From assembly GCA_905339165.1 (NCBI GenBank), contig CAJPFH010000056.1:1-35208 (forward strand): a stretch of 35,208 nucleotides of DNA. Direction: 5' to 3'. Position numbers and translations under genes: made by a program. The stretch comes from Flavobacteriales bacterium. GTDB lineage: Bacteria > Bacteroidota > Bacteroidia > Flavobacteriales_E > Vicingaceae. The notes under the pieces are model-generated. The model made no database searches and was not told where the DNA came from. It saw only the letters and a program-made list of their open reading frames with translations. Of this stretch, positions 502 to 35,208 are shown one piece after another. How positions within the stretch are numbered: position 1 is the stretch's first letter; the number at the start of each line of letters is the position of its first letter.

Positions 502-620
502 GTCACTTCGAGTAGCGAGGAACGAGTGCATCGAGAAAAATAGTTTTTATCTCAATCCCTTTATCAGTTCTTGATACGGCTTTATTTTGTTGGCACTTCA
601 TTAAACCTACTCGAACGGAC
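502..620. repeat. Palindromic repeat, family B, copy 1 (119 bp)
   Basis: Left arm 502-536 starts GTCACTTCGAGTAGCGAGG and ends GCATCGAGAA; a spacer of about 30 bases follows; the right arm 568-620 starts TTCTTGATACGG and ends CTACTCGAACGGAC. The arms are imperfect inverted repeats. The right arm has some 23 extra bases in its middle compared with copy 2. Confidence 0.85.
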
Positions 621-634
621 AAGGAGCAAAAACT

Positions 635-730
635 GTCACTTCGAGTGGCGAGGAACGAGTGTATCGAGAAGAACAGTTTTTGTCTCAATTCCTTTACCTG
701 TTCTCGATACGCTCCGCTACTCGAACGGAC
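635..730. repeat. Palindromic repeat, family B, copy 2 (96 bp)
   Basis: Left arm 635-670 starts GTCACTTCGAGTGGCGAGG and ends GTATCGAGAA; spacer 671-700; right arm 701-730 starts TTCTCGATACGCTCCGC and ends CTCGAACGGAC. It lies in the same direction as copy 1, 14 bases after it. The spacers of the two copies agree at about 24 of 30 positions, so the whole element was duplicated, not only the arms. A third left arm is at 35169-35208. Confidence 0.88.
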
Positions 731-818
731 AAAAAAAACGAAACACTCTACTACGGTAAAAAGGTAGAACAAGAATAGTTGGGTAGATTCTGTTGTTGAG
801 TATTCAACTCTTAGGTAT

Positions 819-2611: not shown

Positions 2612-4396
2612 ATGAAAAAAAAAGTATTCCTTCTGTTCTTAACGGCACTATCTAGCTCTGTATTCGCCACTCTATCTACACCACAACTTTCCTTGCCTGC
2701 CGATGGTGCCACTGTAATTATGCCTAATGCCTTTTTAAAATGGGAACCGGTTACCAATGCAACATATTACAGAATACAAGTAGATACCAATGCGAATTTT
2801 ACTAATCCGAAAAGTTTTATTTCTATTCCCACCGGGTTTTATTGTGCTAACTTATTATTTGGAACAGATTATTATTGGAGAATTAAAGCCAAAAGTCCTA
2901 GCGATTCTTCCGTTTGGTCTAACGCGTTTTTATTCACTACATTTTATAACGAGTTTACGCTGAACACCCCTAAAATGGTAAATGCAAAAGCTACTTTTAC
3001 AGTTAGTGCCAATGCCGATATAACTAGTGATGTGCTCACTATTAACGGAGTAAATCTAACCGAAGGGCTGCATTTTATAGCAGGAGGTTCTGCAAATGCC
3101 ACAGCCACAAATATTGCCAATGCCATTAATATTCATGTAAGTTTAATAGGGGTGGTAGCAGCAACCACTTCTAACAACAAAGTAGATGTTTGGGCGGTGG
3201 CAAACGGCACTTTTGGAAATGGTATTCCGGTTTCTTTTACCGCAGGAGGAGCTGCAGGAGGTTCTTGGAATGGAGCCTCTTTAACAAACGGTAGTTTTGG
3301 AATAGATGCCGTTAAAGGGAATCTAACATGGAACGCTATTACCGGTGTAAATTCATATCAATACGAAATAGATATTACCCCATTATTCAACTCTCCAAAC
3401 AACAAAAAAGGAATAGTGCCCTTCGGAACCAACTTGGCCGAAGTTGATCAGTTGTTTTTTGATACCTATTATTATTGGAGATTAAGAGCCATTCACTCAC
3501 AAGATACCAGCGGATGGTCGGCCTACTTAACTTTTAAAACTCCTGCAGAAATAGTACATCTTTCACCGGCTCCTTCCTTTACCGGAGCAATGGCTAATCA
3601 ACAAATGAAATGGAATTTAATGACCGGTGTGCAGGAATATGACGTGCAATACGATACCACATCTAATTTTAATTCTACCGAGCTAAAAACAATCTACAAT
3701 GTTTTTAGTCCGCTTAATTATGCAAATGCCATTAAACTGCATTTTAATCAAAAATATTACTGGAGAGTAAGAGGTGTTCATGATTTTGATGTTTCCGGAT
3801 GGTCCACCTCGTGGAATTATACCACCATTAATCAAATTCCATTGTACCAACCGGCTAATACTTCTTCAACTTCTTCGCCTATTCCAACTTTTGTTTGGAA
3901 AAATGTAACCGGCATAACAAAATATGAATTGCAATTAGATGTAAACAGCAACTTTACAAACCCCACCACTTATGTGGTAAATCAAAACGGATCTGATTCT
4001 GCTTATACATTGCAAAATGCATTGGTTATGAATCAAATTTATTTTTGGAGGGTAAGAGCCATGCACTCAAACGATACCTCCTCATGGTCTGCTCCGTTTT
4101 CTTTTACTGCCTCAAATACTTCGGTTGCTGAAGCCATTTCAAAAGCTTCTATCAATGTTTTTCCTAACCCAGCCAAAGAGGTTGTAAATATTAGTGTGTC
4201 AAATATGTCCTCCTCTTCTGTAAATGTAATTTTAATTGATATGCTTGGAAAAACAGTATTTGAAAGCATTTACTCCATTAATGCCTCTACTCAAAACATC
4301 AGTATAGATTTAAACAAAGTGAATCAAGGCATCTATTTTATTCACGTAATATCCGGAAACGAAAAACTTACAAAACGAATCGTGGTAAACAAATAA
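2612..4396 (+). CDS. Secreted fibronectin-III-like repeat protein with T9SS type A sorting domain
   Basis: 594 residues. Residues 1-19 are a signal peptide. Four fibronectin-III-like repeats end in the recurring motif YYWR-(I/L/V)-(K/R) followed by ...S-W-S (around 87-103, 287-303, 381-398 and 476-493). Residues 505-594 form a T9SS type A C-terminal domain (INVFPNPAKEVVNISV, then LIDMLGKTVF, GIYFIHV, KLTKRIVVNK), which directs export across the outer membrane and is usually cleaved. Repeat 2 is split: FTLNTPKMVNA at 115-125 and GNLTWNAITGV at 236-246 look like the two ends of one repeat, with about 105 residues between them. That insert (VLTINGVNLTEGLHFIAGGS..., then a TFGNGIPVSF stretch) recalls beta-rich modules of phage tail and adhesin proteins. 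No enzyme motif is present; an adhesive or cell-surface role is inferred. Confidence 0.85.
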   Translation: MKKKVFLLFLTALSSSVFATLSTPQLSLPADGATVIMPNAFLKWEPVTNATYYRIQVDTNANFTNPKSFISIPTGFYCANLLFGTDYYWRIKAKSPSDSSVWSNAFLFTTFYNEFTLNTPKMVNAKATFTVSANADITSDVLTINGVNLTEGLHFIAGGSANATATNIANAINIHVSLIGVVAATTSNNKVDVWAVANGTFGNGIPVSFTAGGAAGGSWNGASLTNGSFGIDAVKGNLTWNAITGVNSYQYEIDITPLFNSPNNKKGIVPFGTNLAEVDQLFFDTYYYWRLRAIHSQDTSGWSAYLTFKTPAEIVHLSPAPSFTGAMANQQMKWNLMTGVQEYDVQYDTTSNFNSTELKTIYNVFSPLNYANAIKLHFNQKYYWRVRGVHDFDVSGWSTSWNYTTINQIPLYQPANTSSTSSPIPTFVWKNVTGITKYELQLDVNSNFTNPTTYVVNQNGSDSAYTLQNALVMNQIYFWRVRAMHSNDTSSWSAPFSFTASNTSVAEAISKASINVFPNPAKEVVNISVSNMSSSSVNVILIDMLGKTVFESIYSINASTQNISIDLNKVNQGIYFIHVISGNEKLTKRIVVNK

Positions 4397-30221: not shown

Positions 30222-33200
30222 ATGAAGAAAAATATTTTATTCTTTTTCTTGATTCTTTTATGTTCGTACTCTCTTGTATATGCACAACATGTACGTTTCC
30301 GGAGAATATCTACAGATGAAGGATTGATGAATAGTATGGTAAATGCCATAACGCAGGATAGTGCGGGGTTTATGTGGTTTGCTTGTTCTAACGGATTATG
30401 CCGGTACGATGGAAAAAATTTTGTGTACTTTCAGCACAATCCCTCCGATACATCTACTATAGATGACGGGCTTGTACGAACTCTTTATTACGATACAGAT
30501 GGGTATTTGTGGGCCGGAGGATTTGGCTGCGGCCTGGTTAAAATAAATAGCAGCACCCATAAGTTGCAAAAACTAAGCAGGCTCAATGCCGATTCCTCTG
30601 TTTTTTTACCTAGCAATTCGGTAACTTCAATAATGCCGTTTGGAAACTCCCTGTATATTTCTACGCTTGATGCCGGAATATGGGAATACAATAAAAAGAA
30701 TAAGAAATTTTCAAAACTGTTTGATTCCAATCAACCGTCATTTGTGCCTTACAGAAATATTTTTATAACCCCCGATGGCATAATGTGGATTGCAACCAGC
30801 ACAGAAGGCGTATGGATGTACAATTTAAAAAACAAAGAACTTAAAAAGTACAACGAATCAAATACAAGCGGAGAGCATATTGTTTACAATAAGGTGCGAA
30901 GTGTTTTTGTAGATGCAGAAGGCTGGGTATGGTTAAGTTTTTGGGAAAAAGGAAATGGGGTACTGATGAAAGGAGAAGAACAATTTGTTACGAATGTAGA
31001 GTATCATCCTTTTTTCGGAGAATTACTTACAACAGGACTGGTATCGCAGTTTTTGCAAGATAGAGAAGGAAACATTTGGCTTTGTACTGCCGAAGAAGGA
31101 GCTGTACGCTTTAATAAGAAAAAGCAAAAAACAAAAAGTTATACCAATAGTTTAAGCAATTTAGAATCGATTGGTAACAACACAGTTCTATGTGCATACA
31201 GCGATAATACAGGTGCTTTATGGTTTGGAACATGGAAAGGAGGAGCACAAGTAGTAAATCCCAAATTATCGCGTTTTGGCTTGTATATAGCAGAAGATGC
31301 AAATTCCCATGCCCTTCATAATTCAACCGTAACTTGTTTTACACAATTAAAATCCGGAAACATTTTGTTGGGAACGGGAGATGGAGTTTCGGAATTGAAT
31401 CCATCTAAAAATATTTTTTCTCGTTTCGATTTCGATTCGATAAACAATATATACCATTTGCAAAATGCACACATATACTCTATTGCCGAAGATAAAAACG
31501 AAAATATTTGGGTGTCTGTGTTTGGCTCAGGACTTTATGTTTTCAGTAAAAAAAGAGAATTAATAAAACGGTATGTAGATGGAGAGAAAGGAGGATTATC
31601 CTCTCAAATCATTCAAAAAATACTCATTACAAAATCAAATAAAATATATGCTGCGGCCAGTTCTAGAGGGTTGAATATTTATGACACTCTAACGAATAAT
31701 TTTCATTTTTTAATTCATTCGGAAGAAGATTCTTTATCGCTTAGCAGTGACGAAATTCTTTGTTTATTGGAAGCAAAAAACGAAAATATTTGGGTGGGAA
31801 CAAAAGGTGGAGGGCTAAATCTTTTTAATCCGAAAACCATCAGTTTTAAACGATTTCTTAGCGATAAAAAGAATCCAAAAAGTTTGCCAAGCAATCAAAT
31901 AAACACGCTGTGTTACGATAAACTGGGAGGCTTATGGGTTGGAACCGATGTAGGCATTTGCCGCTATTCCGAATCAGATCATTCGTTTACAAACTATTCG
32001 CACTACGATGAATTAATTCAGTCGGAAATATATTCTATTAATGAAGATGAAAAGGGCGACTTATGGATTATTACTTCAAATGGGTTGGTATGTTTTAATC
32101 CGCTCAACGGAAAAATAAAACAATACAATAAAAATAATGGCATTCAAGGTGGCGAGTTTATCCATAATGCCAGTCTTACCTTAAAAGATAAAAGAATTTG
32201 TACGGGCGGTCTTTCGGGGTTTAATATTTTTCACCCAACAGAAATCATCGATATTCCTAATAATGCAAATATCGTATTTACAGGTTTCTCTGTATTAAAC
32301 AAACCATTTAATACTGAAAATGAGGCCGCCTTTATAAACCAATTAACCCTTAGTTACAAAGACTACTTCTTCTCTGTAAACTTTTCGCATCTGGATTTTT
32401 CGAATCCCTCGCAAAACACCTATGCATACAAACTAGAAGGTTTTAATACCGACTGGGTTTATATAGGCACTACCCAATCGGTTACCTTTACTAATTTAAA
32501 TCCGGGTAGCTATGTATTAAAAATAAAGGCAGCCAACAGCATGGGCGAGTGGAGCACAAGGCAAGCCCTCTTAAAAATAACAATTGTTCCTCCTTTTTGG
32601 AAAACCTGGTGGTTTTACACACTATGCACCTTAGCTGCGGTTTTATTGCTTTTCCTGTTTGTAAGGTATCGAGAAAAGAAATTAAAAAACGAGAAATTAA
32701 AACTAGAACAAAAAGTAGAAGAAAGAACCAAAGAATTACAACACGAAAAACTAAAAGTTGAAGAAGCCAATAAGGATATTAAAGACAGTATAACCTACGC
32801 CAAAAGAATACAAGATGCCATATTGCCATCGGCCGAATTTATGGAAACCCACCTGCCGGAACATTTTGTATTATATAAACCTAAAGATATTATTAGTGGA
32901 GATTTTTATTGGATGGATAAATTAGGAAATGCCTTGTTTTTTGCTGCAGCCGATTGCACCGGACATGGAGTGCCCGGAGCCATGGTAAGCGTAGTATGCA
33001 GCAATGCCCTCAATAAAACAGTGGTAGAACTTGGAGTCAGTGAACCGGGATGCATTTTAGATATGGTGCGAAAAATGGTAGTACAAACTTTCGAAAAGAG
33101 TGATAAAAATGTAAAGGACGGAATGGATATTTCTCTCTGTAAACTCGAAATTTCAAAAGAACATTCTGCCACACTGCAATGGGCGGGAGCCAATAACCCT

Positions 33201-33536
33201 CTTTGGATTATACGTAATGCCAATTATAATGAAGTGTATGAAATTAAACCCGATAAACAGCCTATAGGAAAAATAGAAAATCCAACGCCTTTTACTACAC
33301 ATACCATAGAGCTAATAAAAGGGGATACCTTGTTTATATTTACCGATGGCTTTGCCGACCAGTTTGGCGGTGAAAAAGGTAAAAAGTTCATGTATAAACC
33401 CTTAAAAAAAATGTTATTATCCATTCAGAATAATAACATGAATGAACAGAAACGAATGCTGGAAAAAGAATTTGAAAAATGGAAAGGAAACCTAGAGCAG
33501 GTAGATGATGTATGTGTGATAGGGGTAAGAGTGTAA
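30222..33536 (+). CDS. Two-component-regulator-propeller sensor with SpoIIE phosphatase output
   Basis: 1104 residues. Signal peptide 1-21 (KKNILFFFLILLCSYSLVYA). From ~25 to ~680 many ~40-50-residue Reg_prop repeats, recognisable by (G/D)-x-(L/I/M)-W-(F/V/I)-(A/G)-(T/S/C) cores such as GFMWFACSNGLCRYDG, GYLWAGGFGCGLVK and GGLWVGTDVGICRYS, build two periplasmic beta-propellers. A Y_Y_Y domain (about 720-790, YAYKLEGFNTDW) and a membrane segment (797-817) follow, then a coiled coil (818-870). A SpoIIE/PP2C phosphatase ends the protein: PKDIISGDFYWMD (887), ADCTGHGVPGAMVS (910) and FTDGFADQFGG (1041), with Asp residues placed for metal binding and DDVCVIGVRV at the tail. Most such propellers end in a histidine kinase; here a serine phosphatase replaces it. 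Ligand unknown. Confidence 0.92.
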   Translation: MKKNILFFFLILLCSYSLVYAQHVRFRRISTDEGLMNSMVNAITQDSAGFMWFACSNGLCRYDGKNFVYFQHNPSDTSTIDDGLVRTLYYDTDGYLWAGGFGCGLVKINSSTHKLQKLSRLNADSSVFLPSNSVTSIMPFGNSLYISTLDAGIWEYNKKNKKFSKLFDSNQPSFVPYRNIFITPDGIMWIATSTEGVWMYNLKNKELKKYNESNTSGEHIVYNKVRSVFVDAEGWVWLSFWEKGNGVLMKGEEQFVTNVEYHPFFGELLTTGLVSQFLQDREGNIWLCTAEEGAVRFNKKKQKTKSYTNSLSNLESIGNNTVLCAYSDNTGALWFGTWKGGAQVVNPKLSRFGLYIAEDANSHALHNSTVTCFTQLKSGNILLGTGDGVSELNPSKNIFSRFDFDSINNIYHLQNAHIYSIAEDKNENIWVSVFGSGLYVFSKKRELIKRYVDGEKGGLSSQIIQKILITKSNKIYAAASSRGLNIYDTLTNNFHFLIHSEEDSLSLSSDEILCLLEAKNENIWVGTKGGGLNLFNPKTISFKRFLSDKKNPKSLPSNQINTLCYDKLGGLWVGTDVGICRYSESDHSFTNYSHYDELIQSEIYSINEDEKGDLWIITSNGLVCFNPLNGKIKQYNKNNGIQGGEFIHNASLTLKDKRICTGGLSGFNIFHPTEIIDIPNNANIVFTGFSVLNKPFNTENEAAFINQLTLSYKDYFFSVNFSHLDFSNPSQNTYAYKLEGFNTDWVYIGTTQSVTFTNLNPGSYVLKIKAANSMGEWSTRQALLKITIVPPFWKTWWFYTLCTLAAVLLLFLFVRYREKKLKNEKLKLEQKVEERTKELQHEKLKVEEANKDIKDSITYAKRIQDAILPSAEFMETHLPEHFVLYKPKDIISGDFYWMDKLGNALFFAAADCTGHGVPGAMVSVVCSNALNKTVVELGVSEPGCILDMVRKMVVQTFEKSDKNVKDGMDISLCKLEISKEHSATLQWAGANNPLWIIRNANYNEVYEIKPDKQPIGKIENPTPFTTHTIELIKGDTLFIFTDGFADQFGGEKGKKFMYKPLKKMLLSIQNNNMNEQKRMLEKEFEKWKGNLEQVDDVCVIGVRV

Positions 33537-33608: not shown

Positions 33609-35208
33609 ATGAAAGCTAAAATAGTAGTCCTTATATTCTTTTTTATTGGTAAATACGCACATTCAGGAAATATCGATTCTTTAAAAACCATTTTACACAA
33701 TTCAAAGAACGATACAACAAAAGCAAATTTATTAATAAGCATATCAGAGGAGTACTGGACTATAAACTTCGATTCTTCTCTAAAGTATTCTACCGAGGCC
33801 AGTGTATTATCTTCTATGTTATCTTTTAATAAAGGTAAGGCGAATGCATTATCCTCACAAAGTAGTGCCTATTATTATCAGGGAAATTTAGATAGTGCCA
33901 TAAGTATTGGAACTAGAGCCTTATCAATAAAAATCAAACTAGGAAATAAGAAATTAATAGGCAAATCATATAATAATATAGCTATGTTTTATGACGAGAC
34001 AGGTAATTACGACTCTGCTATTACTTTATACAATAAGGCTTTATCTGTTTTTGAAGAAATTAAAGATAAAGAAGGGACGGCCTCTACCTACGGAAACATG
34101 GGCGTAATGTATCGTTATATAGGTAATTATGTTATTGCCATTGATTATTTTTTGAAAACTTTACGCATATTAGAAAACATAGGAAATAAAAAGGGTGTAG
34201 CAACAACCTGTACCAACTTAGGGGTTTTATATGCCAATCAAAAAGAGTATAAAGAATCGCTAAAATATTTTAAAAATACCTTGCAGTTATATGAAGAGTT
34301 GAAAGATATAGACGGTATCAGAAAAGCTCATCAAAATCTAGGGAGCTTATTTTATTTTACCCAGAATTTAGACACGGCCTTATATCATTTTAAAATAGCA
34401 GAAAAAATGCTTTTAGAAACTACGCAAGCTTTTAACTTAGTTTCGCTTTATGATAATATGGGTAGTGTTTATAAATTGAAAAAACAAAATAAAATAGCTC
34501 TCTCATTTTATTTAAAGGCAATGAATATAGCCGACAGTTTGGGAAACGAATATAGTAAGGCTTCTTTGTATTGTAATCTTGGCCTCTTACACATCGAAAT
34601 GAAAAAATATAACGATGCCATTAATTACTGTTTAAAGGAATATGACCTTGCTGTTAAAATGCAAAATATCAGTAACATTAGTTCGGCTTGCAACTGTTTG
34701 TATACCGCTTACGAAAAGAAAGGTAATCTTCCACTGGCATTTAAATTTTATAAAGAACATATTCTCTATAGAGACAGTATTTTAAATGAAAATAACACAA
34801 AAGAAATAACACAAAAACAGATGGAATATTCTTACGAAACACAGCTAATTGCTGATAGTATTAAAAGGGAGGCAATATTTAAAATGAATGAATATACACA
34901 TAAACAAGATATTAAGAATCAGAAAATATACTCTTATGCCGCTCTAGTAGGATTGCTGATAATGGCTGTTTTTGTGTTTGTTCTGTACAGGGGAAATATT
35001 CAGAAAAGAAAAAACAATATTCAACTTGAAGAAAAAAATAAAATTATTAGTTATCAAAAGTTGGTAGTAGAAGAAAAACACAAAGAAATTACCGACAGTA
35101 TTAATTATGCCGAGCGAATACAACGCAGCTTTTTGGCCACCACCGAAATGTTAGATAAGTATTTAGGCGTTACTTCGAGCAGCCATAGGCATGAGGGCGT
35201 ATCGAGAA
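33609..35208 (+). CDS. TPR sensor with SpoIIE-type output, interrupted by a palindromic repeat (partial)
   Basis: 533 codons are open to the window edge. Signal peptide MKAKIVVLIFFFIGKYAHSG. Residues ~30-420 are tetratricopeptide repeats (e.g. GKSYNNIAMFYDETGNYDSA, GTASTYGNMGVMYRYIGNY, GVATTCTNLGVLYANQKEY). A membrane segment is at 440-462 (YAALVGLLIMAVFVFVLY). A coiled coil leads to EITDSINYAERIQRSFLATT, the standard run-in to a SpoIIE phosphatase, homologous to DSITYAKRIQDAILPSAEF in the gene upstream. The PKD-I-x-SGDFYW motif should follow within ~12 residues, but the sequence becomes GVTSSSHRHEGVSR, encoded by a repeat of family B (35169-35208). The frame stays open; whether the phosphatase resumes lies beyond the window. 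Confidence 0.85.
   Translation, partial: MKAKIVVLIFFFIGKYAHSGNIDSLKTILHNSKNDTTKANLLISISEEYWTINFDSSLKYSTEASVLSSMLSFNKGKANALSSQSSAYYYQGNLDSAISIGTRALSIKIKLGNKKLIGKSYNNIAMFYDETGNYDSAITLYNKALSVFEEIKDKEGTASTYGNMGVMYRYIGNYVIAIDYFLKTLRILENIGNKKGVATTCTNLGVLYANQKEYKESLKYFKNTLQLYEELKDIDGIRKAHQNLGSLFYFTQNLDTALYHFKIAEKMLLETTQAFNLVSLYDNMGSVYKLKKQNKIALSFYLKAMNIADSLGNEYSKASLYCNLGLLHIEMKKYNDAINYCLKEYDLAVKMQNISNISSACNCLYTAYEKKGNLPLAFKFYKEHILYRDSILNENNTKEITQKQMEYSYETQLIADSIKREAIFKMNEYTHKQDIKNQKIYSYAALVGLLIMAVFVFVLYRGNIQKRKNNIQLEEKNKIISYQKLVVEEKHKEITDSINYAERIQRSFLATTEMLDKYLGVTSSSHRHEGVSR
35169..35208. repeat. Palindromic repeat, family B, copy 3 left arm, inside a coding region
   Basis: The sequence starts GTTACTTCGAGCAGCC and ends GGGCGTATCGAGAA at the window edge. 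It matches the left arms at 502 and 635 at both ends (GTYACTTCGAG and RTATCGAGAA type) with a more divergent centre. It is in the same orientation as the other two, and the right arm would lie beyond 35208. Confidence 0.75.

Follow-up and report, generated by a model that had tools for sequence, protein, structure and literature searches.

According to a study on palindromic repeats (PMC3733652), the Rickettsia palindromic elements RPE-1, RPE-4 and RPE-6 occur between genes as well as inside open genes, two of them can be present in a single gene, and proteins containing RPE-1 have been reported to be expressed. This source also describes intragenic REPs in several species and, for two Xanthomonas species, different REPs at roughly corresponding positions in recB, and it mentions CGTC repeats in Bacteroidetes. 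Whereas these earlier intragenic repeats were reported to be spread over many genes, the repeats described here appear to have repeatedly entered the same pair of loops in a single protein family. In the portions of the open-access literature that were consulted, no report of repeats within Bacteroidota or SpoIIE genes was found.

The locus lies at the end of the window, i.e., the whole stretch of 35,208 nucleotides that was analyzed (contig C56). There, the 5′ part of a TPR-SpoIIE gene (33609..35208, forward strand) encodes a TPR sensor, a probable membrane helix (judged by eye), a signaling helix and the start of the phosphatase domain, in this order. The last 40 bases (35169..35208, forward strand) are a left-arm copy of the GTNACTTCGAG...TATCGAGAAG repeat family (the TTCGAG family in the following) with the in-frame reading VTSSSHRHEGVSR, and the frame of the gene across this copy is LDKYL-GVTSSSHRHEGVSR. 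A search for the pattern CTTCGAG-N(10-24)-ATCGAGAA yielded three places in the window (506-537, 639-670 and 35173-35208) and none in 100 shuffles. Model R1 of the family, which comprises 16 rows, six of them derived from SpoIIE genes, matched the window-end copy with 43.9 bits (E 1.4e-9), this match being incomplete as it is cut off by the contig end. In the genome, at least 33 matches to R1 were obtained (E<=0.01). The original prediction of a repeat standing in frame at the start of a phosphatase domain is confirmed by the pattern search, the R1 match and the open frame, and the genome-wide family that it presupposed does exist. A chance match is ruled out as an explanation by the shuffles and the R1 E-values.

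Among the 33 genome matches listed, 27 are neither in a SpoIIE gene nor in any frame of at least 150 aa; a copy at C5:1792, which lies in a sense frame of 131 aa, was taken as intergenic. The core of the repeat has a length of 36 nt at the window end as well as at C3, C6, C31:64114 and C45, and of 32 nt in the copies at 506 and 639. One of the latter is an intergenic left arm (502..538, forward strand) with a partner right arm near 607-620, and the other belongs to a two-arm intergenic element (635..731, forward strand). This element is predicted to form a strong hairpin (-42.4 kcal/mol, z -5.97), the hairpin at 502-619 being weaker (z -2.05). In G001, a genome of the same genus, an intergenic copy (C18:206208) and an in-frame copy (C31:13054) have the same letters over 41 nt.

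The window stops at the repeat because the assembly has a junction there. The terminal 141 bp of the window (35068..35208, no strand assigned) form an exact overlap within near-identical phosphatase domains and equal C97:3933-4073 and C72:1-141, which places the window end at the end of contig C97 and at the start of contig C72. The end of contig C18 likewise has 141 bp in common with the starts of C97 and C14, and such common contig ends suggest an assembler with that word length. The remainder of the window gene is C72:142-863, and as synteny with G001 fixes the order of C56 and C72, the gene can be regarded as complete with a total of 773 aa by arithmetic. The orthologue on G001:C4 contains the insert, is 93% identical in its TPR part over 490 aa, and is followed by DNA with identities to C72 of 94% (1011 bp) and 92% (1801 bp). 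Upstream of it lies a SpoIIE gene with a frame length equal to that of the 1104-aa SpoIIE gene next to the window gene (30222..33536, forward strand), an insert-free paralogue. C72 also contains, at L010:4560-6150, an element with two transposase frames which we take to be IS3-like and by which a glycine-rich reading frame appears to be interrupted; a poly-C tract is located upstream of it, near 3946.

Across the repeat, C72:3-863 is free of stops, runs into the SGDFYW motif and on to its stop codon, and contains a complete SpoIIE domain. A complete gene of 686 aa with the same insert is present in C18, so that the anticipated return of the frame to SGDFYW is seen twice. Pfam searches identified TPR_12 on the window part, with no SpoIIE match (PF07228) on this cut part, whereas both the complete paralogue in C18 and the domain of the G001 orthologue matched PF07228 (E-values 7.2e-20 and 5.2e-20). 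Alignment with insert-free orthologues delimits an insert of 48 nt (16 codons) between LDKYL and (RN)YFVFF, of which the first 43 nt are in the window (35166..35208, forward strand) and which corresponds in full to C72:99-146, with edges uncertain by a few bases. The coding arm (C72:98-145) folds no better than shuffles (z -0.19), and the right arm which the original prediction expected beyond 35208 is absent from the C72 continuation, which by reading contains the left arm only.

These continuations bear on two further readings. As the window ends right after the repeat, the domain looks missing from the window alone, and the repeat had also been proposed to be the first step of gene decay leading to the loss of the phosphatase. 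However, the domain is intact in C72, in C18 and in three G001 homologues carrying the insert, and its core has a low pN/pS (0.17). Decay is ruled out by the way in which the gene continues in C72 and C18 and by the unbroken frame of the G001 orthologue, and we give it practically no weight. It would be about equally far-fetched to suppose that the assembler joined the repeat to the gene: the window does end in an assembly overlap, but the repeat is found inside C18 and inside three genes of the congener's assembly, with matching synteny.

At least three different TPR sensors (L009, L010 and L011) lead into a near-identical SpoIIE domain in this genome, which is a sign of domain copying between paralogues. 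Copying of a domain with two inserts under at least three sensors would also explain why the assembly breaks at this place. The assembly holds, however, only two full copies of the domain although three sensors enter it, which counts against our preferred explanation.

The alignment of 20 clade members, with the compared genomes being by their titles largely or wholly metagenome assemblies, revealed nine insert-free members with a domain of about 254 aa (255 alignment columns). Orthologues devoid of the repeat thus have a continuous SpoIIE domain at that place, as was to be expected from the initial claim. This genome and G001 have the insert of 16 residues after LDKYL (site 1); after FIVR (site 2), they have another copy of this family, which is more diverged. 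In G034, site 1 is occupied by the TTCGAG family in one gene, whereas two other genes have the CATTGCGA family at the same codon position. The CATTGCGA family is also found at site 2 in G035, and one gene in G024 (C50) exhibits a tandem pair of TTCGAG copies at site 1. Repeats of the GGGAGG type are present at site 2 in G032 and G024; this type as well as GCTCAGCC, CTGAGCGAAGTCGAAG and GTCAGGCAGG were assigned by eye from the domain inserts alone. Some G070 genes seem, by reading, to hold both arms of the palindrome in frame. A SpoIIE gene of this Bacteroidota clade was also found under the title Candidatus Saccharibacteria (L128, CAJCJB010000256.1), which is probably a mixed or mislabelled bin.

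The lengths of the two loops were measured by anchor patterns in 127 distinct domains. Site 1 could be measured in 120 domains (seven left out) and comprises 27 residues in 104 and 35 to 65 residues in 16 of them. Site 2, measured in 90 domains (37 left out), has fewer than 20 residues in 57 and at least 20 in 33. On a quick domain tree with many weak forks, the presence of long loops requires at least nine changes at site 1 and at least 18 at site 2. No recognized repeat fits 12 of the 49 long loops (two of 16 at site 1 and 10 of 33 at site 2), so part of this length variation is ordinary. In 121 domains examined earlier, the length variation of the segments CD, FG, GH and IJ does not exceed two residues, the DE segment is constant in S-type domains and longer in six of 18 measured C-type domains, and the loops BC and HI are long in a few cases. 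Judged from these alignments, the same two SpoIIE loops of relatives appear to have captured unrelated repeat families again and again, and this repeated entry of unrelated families into the same loops of one protein family is the new part of the present case.

The AlphaFold model of a domain which was taken as that of the G001 orthologue (L102; mean pLDDT 86.7) places both inserts in loops. Both are predicted for the most part as coil of low confidence, the site-1 insert lying between helix 25-32 and strand 51-56 and the site-2 insert between strands 162-168 and 183-189. The best PDB match of this model is the PP2C domain of SiaA (6k4e; TM 0.88 by target length). Together with the Pfam SpoIIE domain and the invariant acidic motifs, the PP2C fold assigns the protein to the SpoIIE family. 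Aspartates of these motifs presumably bind metal.

Uncorrected pN/pS values among five same-genus domains are 0.17 for the core and 0.49 for each insert, as calculated from 16 codons per insert and ten pairs which are not independent. This suggests that the inserts evolve under relaxed constraint compared to the core, and tolerated loop extensions are what they most likely are. As an alternative, they could be functional, either by tuning the coupling between sensor and phosphatase or by keeping parallel sensor-phosphatase paralogues apart. The position of site 1 between the signaling helix and the catalytic core would fit this idea, as would the G070 paralogues (L207, L212, L217 and L223), which have varying numbers of VTSS units at site 2. 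Moreover, the 41-nt consensus of the TTCGAG-type inserts has four open frames out of six and the 24-nt form has five, but the inserts seen in SpoIIE are all read in the frame that gives VTSS or a close variant; such a single frame may point to filtering for hydrophilic peptides or to common descent, and to the extent that descent accounts for it, it does not speak for function. The relaxed constraint argues against a function, as do the wide variation of the inserts in length and sequence between genomes and the 104 of 120 domains without a site-1 insert.

The distribution of the repeats over genes bears on the same question. All match counts are lower bounds, as at most 142 or 150 first-look candidates were scored per genome, and the matches are not independent events, since inserts in paralogues can be common by descent. 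R1 yielded at least 72 matches over nine genomes, in two of which none were listed. At least 21 of these copies lie inside gene frames, 19 of them in sense frames of at least 150 aa and the other two at the ends of C56 and C97, where the frames are cut by the contig ends. All 21 intragenic copies listed are located in SpoIIE genes (15 genes by our count). As R1 contained SpoIIE-derived rows, a further model, R3, was rebuilt from 14 non-coding copies. Of the 46 family genomes, 18 gave at least 89 matches to R3 in total, and none was listed for the remaining 28. Fourteen of the 89 matches listed are in SpoIIE genes, and among the other 75 (44 + 31, by reading) none is clearly inside a non-SpoIIE gene. 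Four of the 31 (G060:C120, G060:C55, G031:C95:16335 and G022:C40) fall within a long frame, at a distance of 2 to 61 codons from where it opens, and precede the likely start codon as judged by eye.

For the CATTGCGA family, model R2 was built from SpoIIE inserts only and 90 of 136 matches were read (46 of the 85 in G071 being left out). Twenty-seven of the 90 are in frames of at least 150 aa, nine of them at frame edges and 18 with at least 40 residues on either side. These 18 comprise ten in five SpoIIE genes and eight in seven other hosts, i.e., aroA, the ribD genes of two genomes, a CHU_C protein and three frames from G071, among them one that has no Pfam match. The repeats in EPSP synthase (aroA, one genome) and RibD (two genomes) are in frame (L272 G034:C157, L283 G034:C167 and L265 G035:C264). 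The copies in aroA, ribD and the others disfavor SpoIIE as the only acceptor. With regard to a function of the inserts, the location of all listed intragenic copies of the window family in SpoIIE loops would be a point in favor, and it is a point against that the CATTGCGA family is read in several different frames in SpoIIE genes (by reading) and also occurs in aroA and ribD; taken together, we consider a functional role unlikely, though deserving some credit. The concentration of the window family in SpoIIE genes exceeds the expectation for a passive filter, which counts against our preferred explanation, so something more may act.

A further alternative is targeting, i.e., a REP-type transposase or a repair process preferring a sequence or structure in these loops. 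The genome does contain two Y1_Tnp genes of the REP-transposase type (L051:980-2010 on C4, and L050 on C49), and the G034 paralogues with different families at one codon position would also fit. However, a search for a RAYT gene with TTCGAG copies at its flanks found none, both Y1_Tnp genes being flanked by other palindromes (by eye), and no target sequence common to sites 1 and 2 was seen by eye in the alignment. Targeting therefore appears quite improbable. One of the two Y1_Tnp genes has GTTTGTAGCTGCAAGCTACAAAC-like palindromes at its flanks, possibly its own REP family.

Taken as a whole, the observations are very probably best explained by a one-arm repeat in frame, tolerated in a loop, together with repeated loop capture in Bacteroidota relatives. 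In this view, the 40 bases at the window end open a 48-bp insert, an in-frame copy of a single arm of an interspersed palindromic repeat, placed in the loop which joins the signaling helix to the first beta-strand of the SpoIIE (PP2C-type) phosphatase domain. This insert presumably predates the split between this genome and its congener and would be translated as a Ser-rich surface loop of 16 residues in an intact enzyme, while the beta-hairpin loop at site 2 holds a second copy that has diverged further. The domain with both inserts would then have been duplicated or homogenized under at least three different TPR sensors. More generally, the repeats may be copied widely, with selection purging all but in-frame, stop-free copies in tolerant exposed loops. 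The many SpoIIE paralogues per genome (26 long matches here, 28 in G001) would offer many such loops, and inserts could spread further by domain copying between paralogues. It is a tentative idea, for which we see perhaps one chance in a few, that the two SpoIIE loops are recurrent repeat acceptors across Bacteroidota, and that lineage-specific repeats at the joint between sensor and enzyme diversify sensor-phosphatase paralogues. With many paralogues and insert-free relatives as controls, a neutral versus a beneficial supply of protein segments becomes testable, and the system also allows one to ask whether loop tolerance or targeting decides where repeats stay.

In comparison with known systems, the CATTGCGA family (G034, G035 and G071) resembles CGTC-tagged REPs, as several of its copies begin with CGTCATTGCGA, whereas no such tag is visible in the TTCGAG family. 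Compared with the description of TnpA_REP (RAYT) subclass 2.6 of Bacteroidetes (PMC6006769), both Y1_Tnp genes have the WQ and YIHNNP motifs, but their HUH motifs are SHIH and NHMH instead of NH[LIV]H. Unlike RAYT-mobilized REPs, the TTCGAG family flanks neither of these genes. The phosphatase has the same fold as SiaA and other SpoIIE PP2C domains and can be aligned with them over the domain, but differs, with the structures being matched at the fold level, by repeat-derived extensions at two loops. The proposed similarity to RPEs holds in part. As in RPEs, the repeat is in frame in a host gene which is open and constrained, and the repeat has many intergenic copies (27 of 33 matches listed). 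In contrast to RPEs, the window gene holds one arm and not the whole palindrome, and the TTCGAG family is not spread over many unrelated genes (21 of 21 intragenic copies listed are in SpoIIE genes). Also unlike RPEs, the host belongs to the Bacteroidota, and several unrelated repeat families share the same two loops.
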